Source: Methylophilales bacterium HTCC2181 (lineage in GTDB: Bacteria; Pseudomonadota; Gammaproteobacteria; Burkholderiales; Methylophilaceae). Taken from it: 64,000 bases of DNA. The DNA lies in the NCBI GenBank assembly GCA_000168995.1, contig AAUX01000001.1:186001-250000 (forward strand), written 5' to 3'. Position numbers and translations under genes: made by a program. Shown here one piece after another: positions 7,376 through 63,731 of the stretch (its first letter is position 1; every line of letters begins with the position of its first letter). The notes beneath the pieces are model-generated. The model searched no databases, had not been told where the DNA came from, and saw nothing but the letters and a program-made list of their open reading frames with translations.

Positions 7376-8491
7376 ATGATTATCGGGGTGCTAAAAGAAC
7401 AAAAGCAGTATGAATCTCGGGTGGCAGCAACTCCTGAAACAGTAAAAAAATTAGTATCCTTAGGCCACAAGGTATGGGTCGAAAAAAATGCTGGAGATGC
7501 ATCATCGATTAGCGATAAAGACTATATAGACAGTGGAGCATCAATTACCAAAAGAGAGAAGGCCTTAACAGCAAACCTTGTTCTTTTGGTTAGGCCAATA
7601 GAGGCCCAAGAAATTAAACTCTTAGCGTCATCTCAATACATCCTAGGCCTATTAGAGCCTTTTAATAAAGAACACGCCAAACAAGTGTTGTCAAAAAAAA
7701 TAACTGCTTTTGCATTAGAGGCCTTACCTAGAAACTCAAGAGCGCAATCAATGGATGTACTTTCTTCCCAAGCAAATATTGCTGGATACAAAGCTGTTAT
7801 GTTGGCTGCCGATGTATATAAAAGGTTTATGCCTATGCTTATGACGGCAGCAGGAACAGTAAAAGCAGCTAGAGTAATGGTTTTAGGTGCAGGGGTTGCC
7901 GGACTGCAAGCTATCGCAACTGCAAAAAGGCTTGGCGCGATGGTGGAAGCTTCAGACGTTAGGCCTGCAGTAAAAGAACAAATAGAGTCATTGGGCGCAA
8001 AATACATAGAAGTGCCTTTTGAGACAGAGGAAGAAAAAGAGGCAGCTGGTGGGCAAGGGGGTTATGCAAAAGCGATGCCTAGCAAATGGCTTCAGCGGCA
8101 AACAAAACTAATTGCACAAAAAGCTATCGAGGCAGACATAATTATTACTTCCGCATTAATACCTGGAAGGGAACCACCAATATTATTATTAGAAGAGACA
8201 GTAAAAAAAATGAAGTCAGGAGCAGTTATTGTAGATATGGCGGCCGGAATGGGAAAAGATGGTTCAGGAAATTGCCCTCTTACCCGAGCAAATAAAAATA
8301 TCATGGTTAACAACGTCACAATTATTGGAAAAACCAACCTACCATCCTTATTGAGTGCGGACGCCTCTTCCTTGTATGCTCGCAATATATTTGAATTCAT
8401 CAAGCTTTTAATCAATGATAAGGGCGAGCTCCATGTCAACATGGAGGATGAATTAGTATCTAGCTGTTTAATCAAAGAGGACAAGCAATGA
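7376..8491 (+). CDS. pntAA: NAD(P) transhydrogenase subunit alpha, part 1 (domain I)
   Basis: The 371-residue protein is the NAD(H)-binding domain I of proton-translocating transhydrogenase. It begins [20 protein letters not shown] and contains the Rossmann segment [22 protein letters not shown], with [13 protein letters not shown] after it. It transfers hydride between NADH and NADP+ together with PntB. In Escherichia coli this domain is fused to the membrane part of PntA. Here it is a separate gene overlapping the next by 4 bases, an arrangement common in other proteobacteria. Confidence 0.95.
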
Positions 8492-8817
8492 TTGACCTAA
8501 TAACAATACAAAATATTACGATTTTCGTTTTAGCAATTTTTATTGGGTATCACGTCGTGTGGAATGTAACCTCTGCCTTACATACACCATTGATGTCAGT
8601 AACAAACGCAATTTCTGGCATTGTTATTGTTGGAGCAATATTGCAAGTAGTAGAAATTAACGACACTTTAATAACATTTAGTAGCATTTTAGGTGCATTT
8701 GCAATATTTTTTGCATCGATTAACATTTTTGGAGGATTTTTTGTTACTCAAAGAATGTTAGAGATGTTTAAGAGAAAAACAAATAGCAAAATCAAGGAAT
8801 CTTCTATAGATGATTAG
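8488..8817 (+). CDS. pntAB: NAD(P) transhydrogenase subunit alpha, part 2 (membrane segment)
   Basis: This 109-residue protein has about three membrane helices and the family stretch [26 protein letters not shown]. It forms part of the proton channel (domain II) of transhydrogenase. It overlaps pntAA by 4 bases and pntB by 8 bases, so the three are translationally coupled. Length and sequence are typical of split-alpha systems. Confidence 0.95.
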
Positions 8818-10177
8818 TGAATCAATGGCAATGTTATTTTATTTAATGTCGGCTATCTTTTTTATTATGGCATTAAGAGGCCTTTCCTCGCCAAACTCTG
8901 CCAGAAGTGGAAACATGTATGGAATGTTTGGAATGGCCATAGCAATTTTTACTACCTTGTGGGTTGGGGACGGTTTAATCCCCAGGTTAATTTTCCTGCC
9001 TCTTATTTTGGGTGCATTCATTGGAATAGTTGCAGCAAAAAAGGTTCAGATGACCAAAATGCCGGAATTAGTAGCACTAATGCATTCTTTTGTTGGGCTG
9101 GCCGCTGTATTAATCGCGTTAGCTGCAGTCTTAAACCCAACAGAAAGCTATACGACAGTGCAGCGCTTTGAGTTATTTATTGGGGCTTTTATTGGGGCTA
9201 TAACTTTTTCAGCTTCTGTTATAGCATTCGGCAAATTATCTGGAAAATTTGGGGCGCATACAATTGTTTTTAAAGGTCAGCATTGGTTGAACTTGGTTCT
9301 GTTTATTGCAATGCTTGCAAGCGGAACATTGTTCTTTCAGACCGAGTCAATTATTGCGTTTATGGCTATGACTGCAATCGCTTTAATTTTGGGAGTTACG
9401 TTAATTATTCCCATTGGAGGAGCTGACATGCCAGTGGTAGTCTCTATGCTTAACAGTTACTCGGGATGGGCTGCGGCAGGCATAGGGTTTACTCTAAACA
9501 ATTCGGTGTTAATAATTGCTGGAGCTTGCGTTGGTTCTTCAGGAGCAATTTTGTCTTATATTATGTGTAAGGCGATGAATCGATCAATAATTTCCGTCAT
9601 GTTGGGGGGTTTTGGAGCTGAAACATCTGTAGATATATCTAATGGTGCAGAAAAATCATATAAGTCAGGATCGACGGATGATGTATCGTACCTAATGTCT
9701 AATGCAGAAAGCATAATTATTGTGCCTGGTTACGGCCTTGCTGTGGCCAGGGCCCAGCATGCTCTCCAGGAACTTACGTCAAAATTAATAGATACAGGCG
9801 TAAAAGTCAGATATGCAATTCACCCTGTAGCTGGAAGGATGCCTGGGCACATGAACGTTTTACTTGCGGAGGCGGATGTCCCCTACGATCAAGTAGTAGA
9901 GATGGATGATATAAATAGTGAATTTAGTCAAACTGATGTTGTATTGGTGGTCGGAGCAAACGACGTTGTTAATCCAGCAGCTAAAACACCAGGTAGTGCT
10001 ATTTATGGTATGCCAATATTAGAGGCTCAAAAGGCTAAGATGATTATTGTAAACAAAAGATCTATGGCCCCAGGATACGCCGGCCTAGACAACGAACTAT
10101 TTTATTTAGACAAAACAATGATGCTTTTTGGCGATGCAAAAAAAGTTATAGAAGATCTTGTAAAGTCGTTAGAATAA
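8810..10177 (+). CDS. pntB: NAD(P) transhydrogenase subunit beta
   Basis: The 455-residue protein has roughly nine membrane helices followed by the NADP(H)-binding domain III. Signature stretches are [20 protein letters not shown] in the membrane part, and [16 protein letters not shown] and [20 protein letters not shown] in the soluble domain. The complex uses the proton gradient to make NADPH from NADH. It is the third gene of the pnt operon, with oxyR just upstream. NADPH supply would serve the Old Yellow Enzyme and glutamate synthase encoded nearby. Confidence 0.97.
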
Positions 10178-10894: not shown

Positions 10895-11461
10895 ATGGAT
10901 TTTAAAGAAATACATGGTTTGCTGATATCTTTGAATAATGCTGATTTAGAATCAGGGGCTAAGGCAATTTTTAAGGCATTAGACAAGCCCTTTATAAAGC
11001 ATTTTGAAGGACAGTGGCGTCTGGCGAATCAAGAAGCCGTAGATCTTAATCAAGAAAGCTTAATAACCATTATAAAGAAAGCGCCTATGGTTAATGAGCC
11101 AGAAAAATTCGAAGCATGGTGCTGGACAGTTGCAAAGAACAAAGCTAGAGACTATTTAAGAAAAACAAAAAGAGAAAAAGATTTTATAGAGTTTAATTCC
11201 GATAAATATGTCGACGAATCAACAATAGAGAATATTAATAGCGAACAAAGTGACAATGGTGATTGTGTGAGAGAGGGGTATGGACAGTTTGCGCTAAAAA
11301 ACTCTAATCATGCTTATGCGCTTGACCTGCAACAAGATGGATATTCCATTAAAGATATTGCTACCCGAATTGATAGAACACCTGCAGCAACAAAGGAATA
11401 TTTGTCGCAGTGTAGAAAGAAATTAAAAACTTATATTAAGCATTGTATGGAGCTAGATTAA
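10895..11461 (+). CDS. ECF-family RNA polymerase sigma factor
   Basis: The 188-residue protein has a sigma region 2 (about residues 20-95, including EKFEAWCWTVAKNKARDYLRKTKRE). A variable linker follows, then a region 4 helix-turn-helix (YALDLQQDGYSIKDIATRIDRTPAATKEYLSQ, about 145-176). There is no region 1 or 3, which defines the extracytoplasmic-function class. The likely start has an AGGGGG Shine-Dalgarno sequence. A membrane protein gene follows after 3 bases, where an anti-sigma factor would be expected. A Fur-box-like repeat lies upstream, but the partner is not FecR-like. The specific ECF group is not recognised. Confidence 0.85.
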   Translation: MDFKEIHGLLISLNNADLESGAKAIFKALDKPFIKHFEGQWRLANQEAVDLNQESLITIIKKAPMVNEPEKFEAWCWTVAKNKARDYLRKTKREKDFIEFNSDKYVDESTIENINSEQSDNGDCVREGYGQFALKNSNHAYALDLQQDGYSIKDIATRIDRTPAATKEYLSQCRKKLKTYIKHCMELD

Positions 11462-12214: not shown

Positions 12215-12237
12215 TATAAGATGTACCCATTTTTTTT
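12204..12237 (+). terminator. Intrinsic terminator after the sigma/Sel1 membrane protein operon
   Basis: ATGGGTAC (12204-12211) pairs perfectly with GTACCCAT (12223-12230) around an 11-base loop. Eight T residues follow (12230-12237). It ends the sigma-membrane protein transcript 29 bases after the stop codon. It overlaps the candidate promoter of the next gene. Confidence 0.85.
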
Positions 12238-12247
12238 AGGAAAAATT

Positions 12248-13495
12248 ATGAAGCATAAAAAAATTACTGCCATATTAAGTCAGGTCTTATTGCTCTGTTC
12301 TTTAACGACTCTCTCGAAAGCTTGCGAAGAAAAAAGTTTTTGGGAATCATGGTATCCAAATGGGAGCTTTAAGGGATTTGGCACTCCGCCGGAAAAATTA
12401 GATGTTGCAAAAGCGCAGTACCATCTTGCAGATAATTATTTTAAAGGCAATCACTTAACAAAGGATTACACCAGAGCTGTAAGCTTATATCAGCTTGCTG
12501 CAGACAACGGTGTTGAGCGGGCTCATTTTAAATTAGGCTTAATGAATCACTATGGCAAAGGTAAGCTTAAAAATTTAACCGAAGCTTATAATCATTACAG
12601 CAAAGCAGCTAAAAACAATATACCTGAAGCACAATTTAATTTGGGGTTGATGAATCGTTATGGCTTGGGCATAAAAAAAGACCTAAATAAGGCTTTCTAC
12701 TGGTTTTCAAAGTCTTCTGATCGACAATTAGCCATAGATGTAAATGGATGCTTATACTCCTCTGACGGAATTGTAGAGGCACAATTTAATTTAGGACAAA
12801 TGAATCATTATGGCCTGGGAACTACCAAGGATATGCATGCGGCTGCAAGGTGGTATAAAAAAGCTGCTGATAACGAAATGAAAGAAGCACAATTTAATTT
12901 AGGAAAACTATATGAAAAAGGAGAAGGCGTTCCTTATGATCTTGAGCAAGCTATAAAGTACTATCATTTCGCTTCAAAACAGAATTTAGCTGAGGCACAG
13001 CAAAATCTCGCTCAGATATATCATTATGGGCCTAGTAATATACAGGATCATTATAAGGCCCATCAACTTTACATAAAGGCTGCCCAGAAGGATGTCAAAG
13101 AAGCTTTTTTTAACTTAGGCTTAATGGCACAATATGGAAGAGGAGCAACACAAAATTATGTATCAGCGCACAGTTATTATTTAAAAGCCATAGATCAAAA
13201 CATACCAGAAACATACTTAAATTTAGGGTTTTTGCATCACTATGGGCTAGGAACACCAGTCGACGATAAGAAGGCTTTTGAATATTTTAGTAAGGCTTCA
13301 GCTAAAGGCTTGTTGCAGGCAGATTATCATATAGGCATTCATTATCGGGACGGACGCTGGGTAATGAAAGATAATAACAAGGCAAAATATTGGTTTGATA
13401 AAGTAAAAAATTCAGGCTTAATTGATCCAGAGTTGTTGCCAGAAAATCTCTCAATACGTGAGCCAGATGACGCTCAGCTTTATGTTGCGAACTAA
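12248..13495 (+). CDS. Exported Sel1-repeat protein
   Basis: From the ATG at 12248 the product is 415 residues. This start is chosen because AGGA precedes it, a clean signal peptide follows (MKHKKITAILSQVLLLCSLT, cleavage likely near SKA-CEEK), and the upstream ATG at 12221 lies inside the terminator. The mature part is about nine Sel1-like helical repeats, each with a core such as AQFNLGLMNRYGLG and a YxxAA-type helix. Sel1 repeats mediate protein-protein contacts. Export plus linkage to a sigma factor and a Sel1 membrane protein suggests a periplasmic sensing or stress role. The exact function is unknown. Confidence 0.8.
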   Translation: MKHKKITAILSQVLLLCSLTTLSKACEEKSFWESWYPNGSFKGFGTPPEKLDVAKAQYHLADNYFKGNHLTKDYTRAVSLYQLAADNGVERAHFKLGLMNHYGKGKLKNLTEAYNHYSKAAKNNIPEAQFNLGLMNRYGLGIKKDLNKAFYWFSKSSDRQLAIDVNGCLYSSDGIVEAQFNLGQMNHYGLGTTKDMHAAARWYKKAADNEMKEAQFNLGKLYEKGEGVPYDLEQAIKYYHFASKQNLAEAQQNLAQIYHYGPSNIQDHYKAHQLYIKAAQKDVKEAFFNLGLMAQYGRGATQNYVSAHSYYLKAIDQNIPETYLNLGFLHHYGLGTPVDDKKAFEYFSKASAKGLLQADYHIGIHYRDGRWVMKDNNKAKYWFDKVKNSGLIDPELLPENLSIREPDDAQLYVAN

Positions 13496-13634: not shown

Positions 13635-14459
13635 TTATTTAAACCCACCCTTGCTTCGTTGCTTGCCTTTTTTGCTACCCTCAAAATAGTCAGGTTGATC
13701 AATAAGCTTTAAATAATTGCGAAAAATATTGACCTCCCTAGTATCATATTTGTCTTTAATATCTTCTGTTGGAATTTCGTTTGATACGATTACTGGATCA
13801 CCCATTTCCCAATTAGCGGGTGTTGATACCTTGTGTTTTTCAGACAATTGCAACGCATCAACAATACGCACAATTTCAGTAAAATTACGCCCGATATTTT
13901 TTGGGTAGACAAGAATGGTTTGAACAATTTTATTGGAATCTATTATAAAAACTGATCTAACGGTTTCTTTTACGCCGCTTCCAAGAGAGTTTGAGTTTGG
14001 CTTTGCTTTGGGGTGATACATACCATAGCGCATAGCAATAGATAAATCTTCATCTGCAATAATTGGATAGCGAACATCGGTATTTTCAGATAAGCTCTCT
14101 ATAATCCCTATCAAGGGATCATTGTTTATTAAACTATCCTTGTACTCATTAATGTGTGGAATCCACTCCAAGTGATCTGCAACTGAACCACTACTTAATG
14201 CTAAAACCTTAACATCTCTTTTCTCAAATTGCGGCTGTAATTTTGCAACTTCAGCCAGCTCTGTTGTGCAAACCGGAGTAAAGTCTGCTGGATGGGAAAA
14301 TAAAATAACCCAATTTTCCCCTGACCAATTATAAAAATTAAACTTACCTTGGCTAGTGCTGGCATCGAAGTTTGGAGCAATATCTCCAATTTGCAGAGCA
14401 AACAAGCTATGAGTAAAGAAAAAACTAATAACCGCAATTTTCTTTATTGTTACCAACAT
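13635..14459 (-). CDS. Exported 1-Cys peroxiredoxin (Prx6 type)
   Basis: The 274-residue protein carries the peroxidatic motif PADFTPVCTTE with the reactive cysteine at residue 64. It has no other cysteine, so it is a true 1-Cys enzyme. The long C-terminal half (TPANWEMGDPVIV) matches Prx6-type peroxiredoxins, which reduce peroxides with an external thiol. Unusually, a hydrophobic signal-like start (IKKIAVISFFFTHSLFA, about 5-21) precedes the domain, predicting export to the periplasm. The C-terminus is Lys/Gly/Arg rich. It lies 6 bases after the oxidase-OYE fusion gene and probably shares its transcript. Confidence 0.85.
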   Translation of the reverse strand: MLVTIKKIAVISFFFTHSLFALQIGDIAPNFDASTSQGKFNFYNWSGENWVILFSHPADFTPVCTTELAEVAKLQPQFEKRDVKVLALSSGSVADHLEWIPHINEYKDSLINNDPLIGIIESLSENTDVRYPIIADEDLSIAMRYGMYHPKAKPNSNSLGSGVKETVRSVFIIDSNKIVQTILVYPKNIGRNFTEIVRIVDALQLSEKHKVSTPANWEMGDPVIVSNEIPTEDIKDKYDTREVNIFRNYLKLIDQPDYFEGSKKGKQRSKGGFK

Positions 14460-14465
14460 GTGTAA

Positions 14466-16235
14466 TTATTTTTCATAAAATGGATAATCAGTATAACCTT
14501 TCTCATCCCCACCATAGAAGGTAGTTTGATCTGGCTCATTTAGCGGAAGCCCATGTTCAAGCCTATACACTAAGTCGGGATTAGCTATGAAAGGTACTCC
14601 AAACGCCACCAAATCGACAGTAGTAGCCTCGGCTAAATCTTTCGTGTATCCGTTATTTGCAATACTAGATAAGCCCCCATTTTGTTTAAATAAGGCATAA
14701 AGCTTGTCATAGTTGAAGGGTATATTTTGTCTGTCACCCCCTGTTTGACCTTCTATTACGTGCATATAAGCTAAGGACTTTTTACCTAACTGTGTGGCAA
14801 TGTACGCAAATAATTCTTCTGGGTTTGAGTCGTTGATATCGTTAAAGTTAGAAGTGGGCCCAACCCTAAAACCAATCCGATTGGTAGGGTATATAGAAGA
14901 AACAGCATCAATCACCTCTAACAAAAGTCGCGCTCTGTTTTCTATGGAGCCACCATATCTGTCTGATCGTTTATTGGAGCTGTCTCTAAGAAATTGATCA
15001 ATTAGATAACCGTTTGCAGCATGGATCTCTATCATATCAAAACCAGCTTTTTTAGCGTTAAATGCTGCTTGACGATAATCTTCAACAATGCTTCCTATCT
15101 CAAACAATTCTAATTCCCTTGGTTCAGAAACTTCTGCTGAGCCTGATTGTAACCAAATAGATGCCTTAGCCTTAATTGCAGAGGGGGCAACTGGTTTTTG
15201 ATTGCCTGGTTGTAGTTCGATATGCGATATCCTTCCTACATGCCAAAGCTGAAGACAGATTTTCCCACCCCGTCCATGGACCTTATCCACTACATTTTTC
15301 CACCCATTTGTTTGTTCTTCAGTATATATTCCTGGAGTCCAGGAATAGCCTTGGCCTTGCTGACTTATCTGTGTTGCTTCGGCAATAATTAGCCCTGCAC
15401 TTGCTCGCTGAGAATAGTAATCAGCCATTATAGCTGTTGGAACCCCAGATGCTGTTGCTCGGCTCCGGGTGAGTGGAGCCATGACTATTCTATTAAATAG
15501 GGAGATTTCACCCAAAGACGTGGAACTATATAAAGTAGTGCTTTGGTGTTCATTTACATTTTTTTTGTTGGCGGTAGAAAAAACAGGCTCTTCTTTTTTG
15601 TATTCTATTTGCTTGATATTTTTTGCGCTATGTTTATCTTCATCAATTGTATCCGCAAGCGTATGATTAACTTTTGCATGGCCAGCCTCGTCGTCTCTAA
15701 CTACTTTTATGACATCAATAAGCCTGGCATCAGGTTTAAGCTTCCAGTAATTTATAGCAATTTGTGGCGCTGCAACATTTAGAGACAGGTCGTTTTCTAC
15801 TTGCTCTAAGTAATTTGTATAACTAATGACAGCTTCCTCTTCAAAATAACCAACTAAACGATGAGCTGTCCGAGGAAAAAATACATAAAGAATAAAATAA
15901 AAATGCCAAAAAAGAGCCTGAGCAAAAAGAATTAAGCCTCTTTCAAACCAGTTAGGTTTAGCAATTTCAATAAAAGTCATAAGATGCATCCTTTCATTTT
16001 CTGCTTCGTCTAATAATGTTTTTATCCAACCTCTGTCACTAGTCATTTTTCTAAGGCATTTAAGGTGTATCCACATCCCTGCAACCATTCCCGGAACAGC
16101 CGCAACTGTTTCTAAAACAACGGCGCGGTGTCCATATCGTTTTGAAAAAAATGTATCCGCCAAAAGACGTAAAAATTTCGTAATAAATAAAGCGACAAAG
16201 TCACTAATGTTCTCTGGGGTTCTATGCTTGCTCAT
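14466..16235 (-). CDS. Alternative oxidase fused to an Old Yellow Enzyme
   Basis: One uninterrupted 589-residue frame joins two enzymes. Residues about 20-200 form a ubiquinol alternative oxidase with all di-iron motifs: LET (E42), NERMH (E81, H84), EEEA (E132-E134) and RDDEAGH (E183, H186), plus two membrane-associated helices. A charged linker (about 200-233) leads to an NemA-like flavoenzyme of about 355 residues (LFNRIVMAPLTRSRA at 246-260; H405, N408 and Y410 in HAANGY; SDRYGGSIENRARLL). The first would pass electrons from quinol to oxygen, the second uses NAD(P)H and FMN to reduce enones or other electrophiles. Both halves look complete. A peroxiredoxin gene follows. Confidence 0.85.
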   Translation of the reverse strand: MSKHRTPENISDFVALFITKFLRLLADTFFSKRYGHRAVVLETVAAVPGMVAGMWIHLKCLRKMTSDRGWIKTLLDEAENERMHLMTFIEIAKPNWFERGLILFAQALFWHFYFILYVFFPRTAHRLVGYFEEEAVISYTNYLEQVENDLSLNVAAPQIAINYWKLKPDARLIDVIKVVRDDEAGHAKVNHTLADTIDEDKHSAKNIKQIEYKKEEPVFSTANKKNVNEHQSTTLYSSTSLGEISLFNRIVMAPLTRSRATASGVPTAIMADYYSQRASAGLIIAEATQISQQGQGYSWTPGIYTEEQTNGWKNVVDKVHGRGGKICLQLWHVGRISHIELQPGNQKPVAPSAIKAKASIWLQSGSAEVSEPRELELFEIGSIVEDYRQAAFNAKKAGFDMIEIHAANGYLIDQFLRDSSNKRSDRYGGSIENRARLLLEVIDAVSSIYPTNRIGFRVGPTSNFNDINDSNPEELFAYIATQLGKKSLAYMHVIEGQTGGDRQNIPFNYDKLYALFKQNGGLSSIANNGYTKDLAEATTVDLVAFGVPFIANPDLVYRLEHGLPLNEPDQTTFYGGDEKGYTDYPFYEK

Positions 16236-16318
16236 TGCTACCTTTCGTTAATTATTATGAGTAACTTTATAGTATGTATTTTAAATGAATTACTAATCTT
16301 TATATAAGCATAACCTGC

Positions 16319-17089
16319 CTAGCTTTTATTGCTTACCCTTTTCTTTCTAGGCGCATTTCGTGCCAAGCAATCCCACAAAAAACATGGCAAAACTCTTATT
16401 ATTCGACCGATGATATTCATTGGAAAGGGAATAATGGTAAATCGAGCTTTCTTTTCAATAGACCGGATGATTTTTTTAGCAGCTTTGTCGCTATTAATTA
16501 AGAAGGGCATAGTAAAGTTGTTAACATTAGTCATAGGGGTTCGGATATATCCAGGAGCAATAGTGCTTACATGAATATTAAATTCAAGCATTTCGATCCT
16601 GAGGCTTTCAAGGTAATTAGTTAAAGCCGCTTTTGAAGCACTGTAGGCTCCACTTCCAGGAATTCCACGAATCCCTGCAACGCTTGAAATGCCTACCAAT
16701 TGTCCCCTTTTCCTTTTTTTAAAGGGTTGAATGAATGGATAAAAAGTATTTTGTACTCCAAATAAGTTAGTTTTAATAATTTCCTCAAAAATTTTTAAGT
16801 CAGTGAAATTTTCTGTTAGGGTGCCCTGGCTGATACCTGCGTTGGCTATAACTACGTCAGGAATACCATGCTGAGCCATAAACTCTTCTGCTGCCCATCG
16901 ACACTGAGCAATATCAGTTACATCAATTGAAAAGATTTGTGATGGGCAGGGAAGTATTTTTTGGAGGGAGACTAATTTATCCGAGTCTCTAGCAATCAGA
17001 CCTAGTACCGCTCCTTTTTTAGCATATTCAAGTGCTAGCGCTTTCCCTATCCCAGAATTAGCCCCCGTAATAATGACTTTGATCGTCAT
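16319..17089 (-). CDS. Short-chain dehydrogenase/reductase
   Basis: This 256-residue SDR has the nucleotide-binding motif TGANSGIGKALALEYAKKG at the start, NAG in the middle (VIANAGISQG), the catalytic serine in GISSVAGIRG and YSASK as the catalytic Tyr/Lys pair. It oxidises or reduces an alcohol/carbonyl with NAD(P)(H), substrate unknown. A hydrophobic stretch near the C-terminus (MNIIGRIIRVLPCFLWDCLA) suggests membrane contact. It starts 8 bases after dsbA, and the oxidase-OYE gene follows after 83 AT-rich bases that could hold a promoter. Confidence 0.85.
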   Translation of the reverse strand: MTIKVIITGANSGIGKALALEYAKKGAVLGLIARDSDKLVSLQKILPCPSQIFSIDVTDIAQCRWAAEEFMAQHGIPDVVIANAGISQGTLTENFTDLKIFEEIIKTNLFGVQNTFYPFIQPFKKRKRGQLVGISSVAGIRGIPGSGAYSASKAALTNYLESLRIEMLEFNIHVSTIAPGYIRTPMTNVNNFTMPFLINSDKAAKKIIRSIEKKARFTIIPFPMNIIGRIIRVLPCFLWDCLARNAPRKKRVSNKS

Positions 17090-17096
17090 GCCGAGG

Positions 17097-17729
17097 TTAA
17101 TTTTTTGCTTTGTCTTTGCGAATATTACCTACAATATAATTTATTAGTTCTATGGTATTTTTTTCACCCCCAGCCATTGTTGACGATGTTATGTATCTTC
17201 CGTCTATTATTATGGATGGAACACCAGTTGCCCCTGCTGCTCTAAAAAGTCTTTGAGACTTTGAAAGTTTTGCTTTCATAGAGAAAGTATTAAATGCAGA
17301 CTGTACTTCGTTAATATCTTTTTTTGCTGTTAAGGCAATCCATTGAATTGCACTTTGCTCGCTTCCAGGATCTACGGCCTTGGTTTTATGTATGGCATCA
17401 AACAGTTTTTCATGCAAAGTTTTGTCTAAGCCAAGAGTTTCAAGCGCATAAAAAGCTTTAGCCATGGGAACCCAATCTTTTCTTGGTACAGCGGGAATCT
17501 TTTTAAATACAACATCTTTAGGAGCATTGTCTGCCCATTTATCAATATAAGGGTCTATTTTGTAGCAGTGGATGCATCCATACCAAAACAGCTCTACAAC
17601 CTCTATCTTTCCTGGTGAGTCCGTTGGAATAATCTCTTTAGTTTGTTTAAAGTTAACTCCTGCCTTAGGCTCTAATCCAAATGCCGTGAAAGCAAGCATC
17701 ATTGAAATTACAAATAATAATGTTTTCAT
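17097..17729 (-). CDS. dsbA: Thiol:disulfide interchange protein DsbA
   Basis: The 210-residue protein begins with a signal peptide (MKTLLFVISMMLAFTAFG) and has a thioredoxin-fold active site C52-I-H-C55 in ELFWYGCIHCYKIDP. The cis-proline loop is ATGVPSIIIDG. It introduces disulfide bonds into exported proteins. CIHC with a YKIDP sequel is close to the CPHC of enteric DsbA. It lies between a SPOR protein and an SDR in a leftward gene run beginning at argS. Confidence 0.9.
   Translation of the reverse strand: MKTLLFVISMMLAFTAFGLEPKAGVNFKQTKEIIPTDSPGKIEVVELFWYGCIHCYKIDPYIDKWADNAPKDVVFKKIPAVPRKDWVPMAKAFYALETLGLDKTLHEKLFDAIHKTKAVDPGSEQSAIQWIALTAKKDINEVQSAFNTFSMKAKLSKSQRLFRAAGATGVPSIIIDGRYITSSTMAGGEKNTIELINYIVGNIRKDKAKN

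Positions 17730-61705: not shown

Positions 61706-63731
<2,026 letters not shown>

Follow-up and report, generated by a model that had tools for sequence, protein, structure and literature searches.

A fusion of alternative oxidase and Old Yellow Enzyme in a genus of Methylophilaceae

Does one gene of Methylophilales bacterium HTCC2181 truly encode both an alternative oxidase (AOX) and an Old Yellow Enzyme (OYE) and, if so, what might the two do in a single polypeptide? The question arose from a preliminary description of a 64,000-nucleotide stretch of contig AAUX01000001.1 (positions 186,001 to 250,000; hereafter the window) in the 1.30 Mb genome of this organism (three contigs), whose lineage we take to be the marine OM43-type group. 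The gene was found exactly between the positions claimed for it, 14466 and 16235, and we add its strand, previously unstated: it lies on the minus strand, with its ATG at 16235 and its stop ending at 14466, and has 589 codons and no internal stop. The open frame and two Pfam domains confirmed that AOX and OYE run in a single frame through a linker, and the gene and its parts are as follows (window coordinates, with the supporting evidence in brackets).

14466..16235, minus strand: AOX-OYE fusion gene, 589 amino acids (single open frame, two Pfam domains, six other genomes of the genus)
15651..16229, minus strand: alternative oxidase domain, residues 3-195 (PF01786, alignment to solved AOX)
15540..15650, minus strand: variable, charged linker of about 37 residues, residues 196-232 (alignment, dN/dS, low pLDDT)
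14469..15539, minus strand: Old Yellow Enzyme (FMN oxidoreductase) domain, residues 233-589 (PF00724; 5epd, 6uff, NerA)

The fusion gene and its two halves

AOX-OYE genuinely fuses members of two established enzyme families and has, to date, been encountered in a single genus. In keeping with the earlier remark that no such fusion was known to be described, none appeared among the papers listed by literature searches, judged by titles and the starts of abstracts, with subscription papers and preprints outside their scope.

The reading of the N-terminal half as a complete di-iron AOX with all its Glu and His ligands was also borne out. PF01786 matched residues 3-195 (E 3.6e-79; 265.8 bits, cut-off 22.7), covering positions 12-216 of its 216, and residues 4 to 196 aligned with three solved mitochondrial AOX sequences. 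The six di-iron ligand positions, read off the alignments to two of these sequences, are occupied by E42, E81, H84, E132, E183 and H186 (four Glu, two His), which we take to be the iron ligands by the trypanosome AOX structure. The half is 59.7-71.6% identical to 29 of 30 Methylophilaceae loci from outside the genus (57.4% to the other, L239) and 64-67% identical to the named Limnobacter loci.

PF00724 (Oxidored_FMN) matched residues 240-566 of the C-terminal half (E 1.4e-76; 258.5 bits, cut-off 27), covering positions 7-342 of its 342, and residues 231 to 587 aligned end to end with the glycerol trinitrate reductase 5epd, with comparable alignments to NostocER1 (6uff), morphinone reductase and NemA. 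The His-x-x-Asn and Tyr set, presumably catalytic in OYEs, is kept (H405, N408 and Y410; HAANGYL versus HGANGYL of 5epd). The best Foldseek matches were NerA (E 2.1e-24) and NostocER1, at 52-55% identity among the best 50 of 1409 and, since these best 50 were all OYEs, the fold search bears out the OYE half alone. Described earlier as a complete NemA-like flavoenzyme, the half is indeed complete and NemA-like, and its score against the NCBIfam model of N-ethylmaleimide reductase NemA (NF007899) falls just below the cut-off (393.3 bits against 403); judged by its sequence, it is of the class-I OYE type (NemA, NerA and ene-reductases). Val547, at a position that in some OYEs is an Arg with a presumed role at the FMN phosphate, was considered as a sign of decay and rejected, Val being present in six of nine stand-alone OYEs, Ala in one and Arg in two.

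Conservation, selection and the linker

The fusion protein found matches in 18 of the 31 genomes of the genus. Both domains occur in seven (G000, G005, G009, G024, G025, G027 and G029), the other AOX states being six fusions to a DUF3293 domain (AOX-DUF3293), four AOX alone and one decayed remnant (G002). The concern that relatives might consistently encode two separate proteins was not realized, as a single frame crosses the junction in all seven two-domain genomes; in G009 it then reaches a contig end within the OYE, and in G024 it begins at residue 21, at a contig end. Because seven of the 31 genomes carry the junction, the fusion is no assembly artefact. An assembly error, a frameshift or a pseudogene is extremely improbable given the same junction in seven genomes and the low dN/dS; such a reading could draw on the G029 copy, which has one TGA near its start, though this assembly is considered poor because the adjacent genes are also in pieces.

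Eight genome pairs were compared by the NG86 method, in which saturated pairs gave no ratio: dN/dS was 0.011-0.072 for AOX (five pairs with a ratio), 0.059-0.102 for OYE (six pairs) and 0.054-0.294 for the linker (four pairs), and the linker of the pair G027-G005 gave a YN00 ratio of 1.21. The low ratios of both halves indicate that each is selected as a protein. The fast-evolving linker is what might be expected if the fusion were selectively near-neutral, that is, if a lost stop codon had merged two neighbouring redox genes and the join itself served nothing beyond co-expression, and the loss of OYE once or twice while AOX stayed, with DUF3293 in its place in six genomes, points the same way. 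However, the linker frame is kept between lineages whose synonymous sites are saturated, and purifying selection on the fused OYE is strong, so we regard near-neutrality as unlikely, though a serious alternative.

The linker is 42-52% identical between the window and G027, G005 and G025. An AlphaFold2 (AF2) model of the fusion was weak (mean pLDDT 68.7, pTM 0.52), with an all-helical N-terminal half and pLDDT below 50 at residues 206-243 and also in several stretches of the OYE. Its input alignment comprised the window and 60 rows from 59 of 159 related loci, with the distant OYE-only rows partly misaligned and, in view of this and of the pTM, no AOX/OYE interface was read from the model. A linker of such low confidence could be a protease target, and the linker of G009 holds an ATG, both of which would suit a fusion that is cleaved, or whose OYE is also started internally, to give two proteins. 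Against this, the window has no ATG between VNH189, at the AOX end, and M252, which lies within the OYE fold; the sole alternative start found is a TTG at L241, and neither G027 nor G025 has an alternative start ahead of the ATG equivalent to M252; two separate products are therefore very improbable.

AOX was present in 47 of 150 genomes of a Methylophilaceae sample; of these 47, 33 belong to other genera, and their frames have at most 290 amino acids. It was present in 10 of 369 genomes of a class sample and in 19 of 398 of a phylum sample, both counts including the source, with the largest other frames at 260 and 343 amino acids (the latter in G566), respectively. A fusion-sized AOX frame was thus absent from the 33 Methylophilaceae genomes of other genera and from the class and phylum samples, all AOX frames seen outside the genus being of single-domain or near single-domain size. 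Among 159 related loci, the AOX-matching open reading frames of 290-700 amino acids were exactly five fusion records, in a scan that left out frames above 700 amino acids or with unknown residues. A distant AOX-OYE fusion could be missed, because the scans drew on samples or took their patterns from this protein.

In IMG/VR, 79 contigs encode an AOX relative with 59-76% identity. In four of them (L021, L030, L037 and L063), eight of ten AOX-neighbouring proteins match a phage family, for example NAD-dependent DNA ligase, most of these matches being weak or to families without assigned function. AOX may be a viral auxiliary gene, and it is possible that these contigs are host DNA misfiled as viral.

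The locus beside dsbA and the history of the fusion

The surroundings of the fusion and the related loci contain the following features (window coordinates unless a locus is named).

13635..14459, minus strand: 1-Cys-type peroxiredoxin (AhpC-TSA and 1-cysPrx_C), 6-base gap downstream of the fusion
16319..17089, minus strand: SDR-family oxidoreductase, upstream of the fusion (adh_short; NCBIfam PRK07024 over its cut-off)
17097..17729, minus strand: DsbA-like protein, conserved flank (PF01323; in 28 of 28 rows of the flank tree)
L189-L194, e.g. L190:6334-7386, minus strand: AOX-DUF3293 fusions (translations; DUF3293 model)
7376-10177: transhydrogenase set
10895-11461: sigma-70 region 2 protein, near the Sel1-repeat protein
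12221-13495: Sel1-repeat protein with seven matched repeats
61706-61808, plus strand: TPP riboswitch

The downstream gene had been described as an exported 1-Cys peroxiredoxin that fits redox defence. Its domains and close spacing agree with a 1-Cys peroxiredoxin directly downstream; the export signal is a reading of the N-terminus and stays a prediction. The peroxiredoxin adjoins the fusion in G024, G027, G005, G025 and G009 too. It is weak evidence for a joint function, as it occupies the same locus in three sister genomes that have no AOX-OYE (G019, G026 and G030), and in G029, which has the fusion, the best peroxiredoxin match lies elsewhere in the genome.

The slot that follows dsbA and the SDR gene differs by lineage and holds AOX-OYE with the peroxiredoxin, AOX-DUF3293, AOX alone, cydAB or a rubrerythrin set, as assigned from gene families, with Pfam run on one genome each for the cydAB and rubrerythrin kinds. 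The cydAB genes occupy it in seven sister genomes (G001, G003, G006, G007, G008, G012 and G015; loci L209-L213, L215 and L216), and in G019, G026 and G030 (L206-L208) it contains rubrerythrin, an Fe-S oxidoreductase and DUF3501, followed by the peroxiredoxin. In G024, the rubrerythrin set lies at the end of contig C33 (L214) and AOX-OYE is cut by the start of contig C30 (L196), and this genome may carry the two side by side.

CydA was detected in 10 of the 31 genomes and an AOX not visibly decayed in 17, with no overlap (chance 2.3e-5 if the genomes were independent, which they are not). Many genomes of the genus are incomplete; among the 14 that are at least 90% complete, the other 17 falling outside this set, CydA occurred in seven and AOX in six, again with no overlap. 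COX1 was found in 28 of 31 genomes, 27 of them over the cut-off. That AOX and CydA never occur together, and that cydAB sits in the same slot, suggests that AOX stands in for cytochrome bd, and it is most likely, on gene content, the second quinol oxidase replacing bd in this genus. A small number of evolutionary events may account for the exclusion. G002, G011, G013 and G020, of which G011 is 99% complete, lack both an intact AOX and CydA, so having a second oxidase is no absolute requirement.

The AOX-DUF3293 fusion has a frame of about 350 amino acids and occurs in six of the 31 genomes (G014, G016, G018, G021, G022 and G023). The DUF3293 model matched all six, with full Pfam run on one of them, and the G016 frame runs off its contig inside DUF3293. 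The word DUF3293 was found nowhere in the literature searched. The domain is present in 10 of the 31 genomes and, in the six fusion-bearers, only as part of the fusion; as a separate gene it directly follows the AOX-OYE stop in G029, lies just past the peroxiredoxin in G027 and G025, and is found elsewhere in G013. The G029 copy is 44-50% identical to the fused copies versus 42-43% to those of G027 and G025. A linker motif of the KKEEP type is shared by AOX-OYE and its AOX-DUF3293 relatives (KKE(E)P/KQEP). As the simplest origin of AOX-DUF3293 we infer a deletion of OYE between the linker and DUF3293.

In a small sample, six fused OYEs fell on one side of a 100/100 branch, separate from nine stand-alone OYEs of relatives. 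The AOX halves of the OYE fusions did not form one clade (AU p 0.0013), a result that rests on the long branch of G029. In the AOX tree, built without L239 and most outgroup rows, G029 grouped with the AOX-DUF3293 rows at 100/97 and the other branching within the genus was unsettled. In a tree of four flanking proteins (28 rows), G029 instead joined the AOX-alone genomes and G002 with its decayed copy (95/97) and stood away from the remaining AOX-OYE genomes. This disagreement makes exchange between species at the locus possible. AOX-OYE probably arose once in the genus, and the trees fit one fusion with one or two later losses of OYE: given one fusion, either tree implies that OYE was later lost or replaced once while AOX stayed, and two such events are suggested by the trees in combination or by the shared linker motif. 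In the AOX-alone genomes (L199-L202), AOX is followed immediately by a convergent PD-(D/E)XK nuclease-like gene and then by a YqaJ-like one, an arrangement that looks as though the tail of AOX had been removed by an island; these neighbours were assigned by gene families in all four, with Pfam for L199 only.

Control of the fusion by NsrR, under which the AOX of Vibrio fischeri reportedly stands, was considered and dropped. A 15/17 match to an NsrR-like core lies 38 bases upstream of the start codon of the fusion (region 16236-16300 of the window). The same core did not exceed 12/17 in any of 15 other upstream regions tested, the start of G024 being cut off, and the one Rrf2 match in the source genome reads like IscR.

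A possible function and comparison with known enzymes

The preliminary description had proposed that one protein could couple NAD(P)H-dependent reduction to quinol or oxygen chemistry, or co-locate detoxification with oxygen consumption; its interpretation is, overall, partly supported. The explanation to which we lean, with modest confidence, is of an AOX in place of cytochrome bd that carries a membrane-tethered, electrophile-detoxifying OYE. The AOX half would sit at the inner membrane face and oxidize ubiquinol, reducing oxygen to water with no proton pumping, and would stand in for cytochrome bd as a second terminal oxidase beside the heme-copper oxidase. The flexible linker would tether an FMN-dependent NAD(P)H reductase, the class-I OYE, at the membrane, where it would most likely reduce electrophiles that arise from oxidative chemistry, such as quinones and unsaturated carbonyls. 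We infer the membrane placement, the substrates and the benefit of tethering; detoxification by the OYE half is suggested by an OYE of Staphylococcus aureus that quinone, aldehyde and oxidative stress induce and that gives protection from them (PMC9152700).

The lineages that lost OYE kept AOX, from which the halves appear to be co-located and co-expressed rather than catalytically interdependent, and direct electron coupling between them is possible but unsupported. The transhydrogenase set of the window could supply NADPH to the OYE; since the set also flanks the slot in cydAB genomes, it is in no way specific to AOX-OYE.

Alternatively, the protein might be a water-forming NAD(P)H oxidase, in which OYE reduces ubiquinone and AOX re-oxidizes the quinol with oxygen, forming an overflow valve in one protein. 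Both chemistries are plausible from the families, quinones being among the compounds that OYEs can reduce. Seven of the 31 genomes retain the fused arrangement, and no genome of the genus had an OYE match without AOX at E 0.001. However, AOX occurs without OYE in ten of the 31 (four alone, six with DUF3293), which argues that AOX needs no OYE, the linker is variable and of low confidence, and ubiquinone is membrane-buried and, to our knowledge, not a known substrate of OYEs. This oxidase reading strikes us as rather improbable. Still more doubtful is the wider proposal that the C-terminus of AOX is a swappable mount, for OYE or DUF3293, and that AOX-OYE is a single-polypeptide enzyme passing electrons from NAD(P)H to quinone to oxygen. 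If true, it would give a minimal-genome methylotroph a valve that forms water and lets electrons bypass complex I, bc1 and the proton-pumping oxidase.

The tethered, detoxifying OYE remaining our preferred reading, the locus is of interest in three respects. An AOX joined to an NAD(P)H flavoenzyme, with another partner or none in sister lineages, is a natural experiment on the cellular neighbours of AOX. AOX-OYE also offers a ready construct for asking if a single protein can link the oxidation of NAD(P)H to AOX. Lastly, the locus bears on the choice of a second oxidase by small-genome bacteria, which in these 31 genomes is AOX or cytochrome bd and never both.

Among known systems, stand-alone AOX (PF01786) of bacteria and mitochondria has the full domain and the six ligand positions in common with the AOX half but carries no second enzyme, which the AOX of the window bears on its C-terminus. 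Likewise, the class-I OYEs NerA/XdpB, NostocER1 and NemA align end to end with the OYE half but have no AOX, to which the OYE of the window is fused N-terminally. The AOX-DUF3293 fusion shares the AOX family, the locus beside dsbA and a similar linker motif with AOX-OYE and differs in its C-terminal partner, DUF3293 (PF11697) instead of OYE. In a multidomain OYE, the bifunctional salicylyl-CoA 5-hydroxylase/oxidoreductase (NF006101), which the fusion matched weakly and in part (142.7 bits against a cut-off of 1078), the OYE is, as in AOX-OYE, the C-terminal part of a fused oxygen-using enzyme, its partner there being, we assume, a flavin monooxygenase-type domain as opposed to the di-iron quinol oxidase of AOX-OYE.
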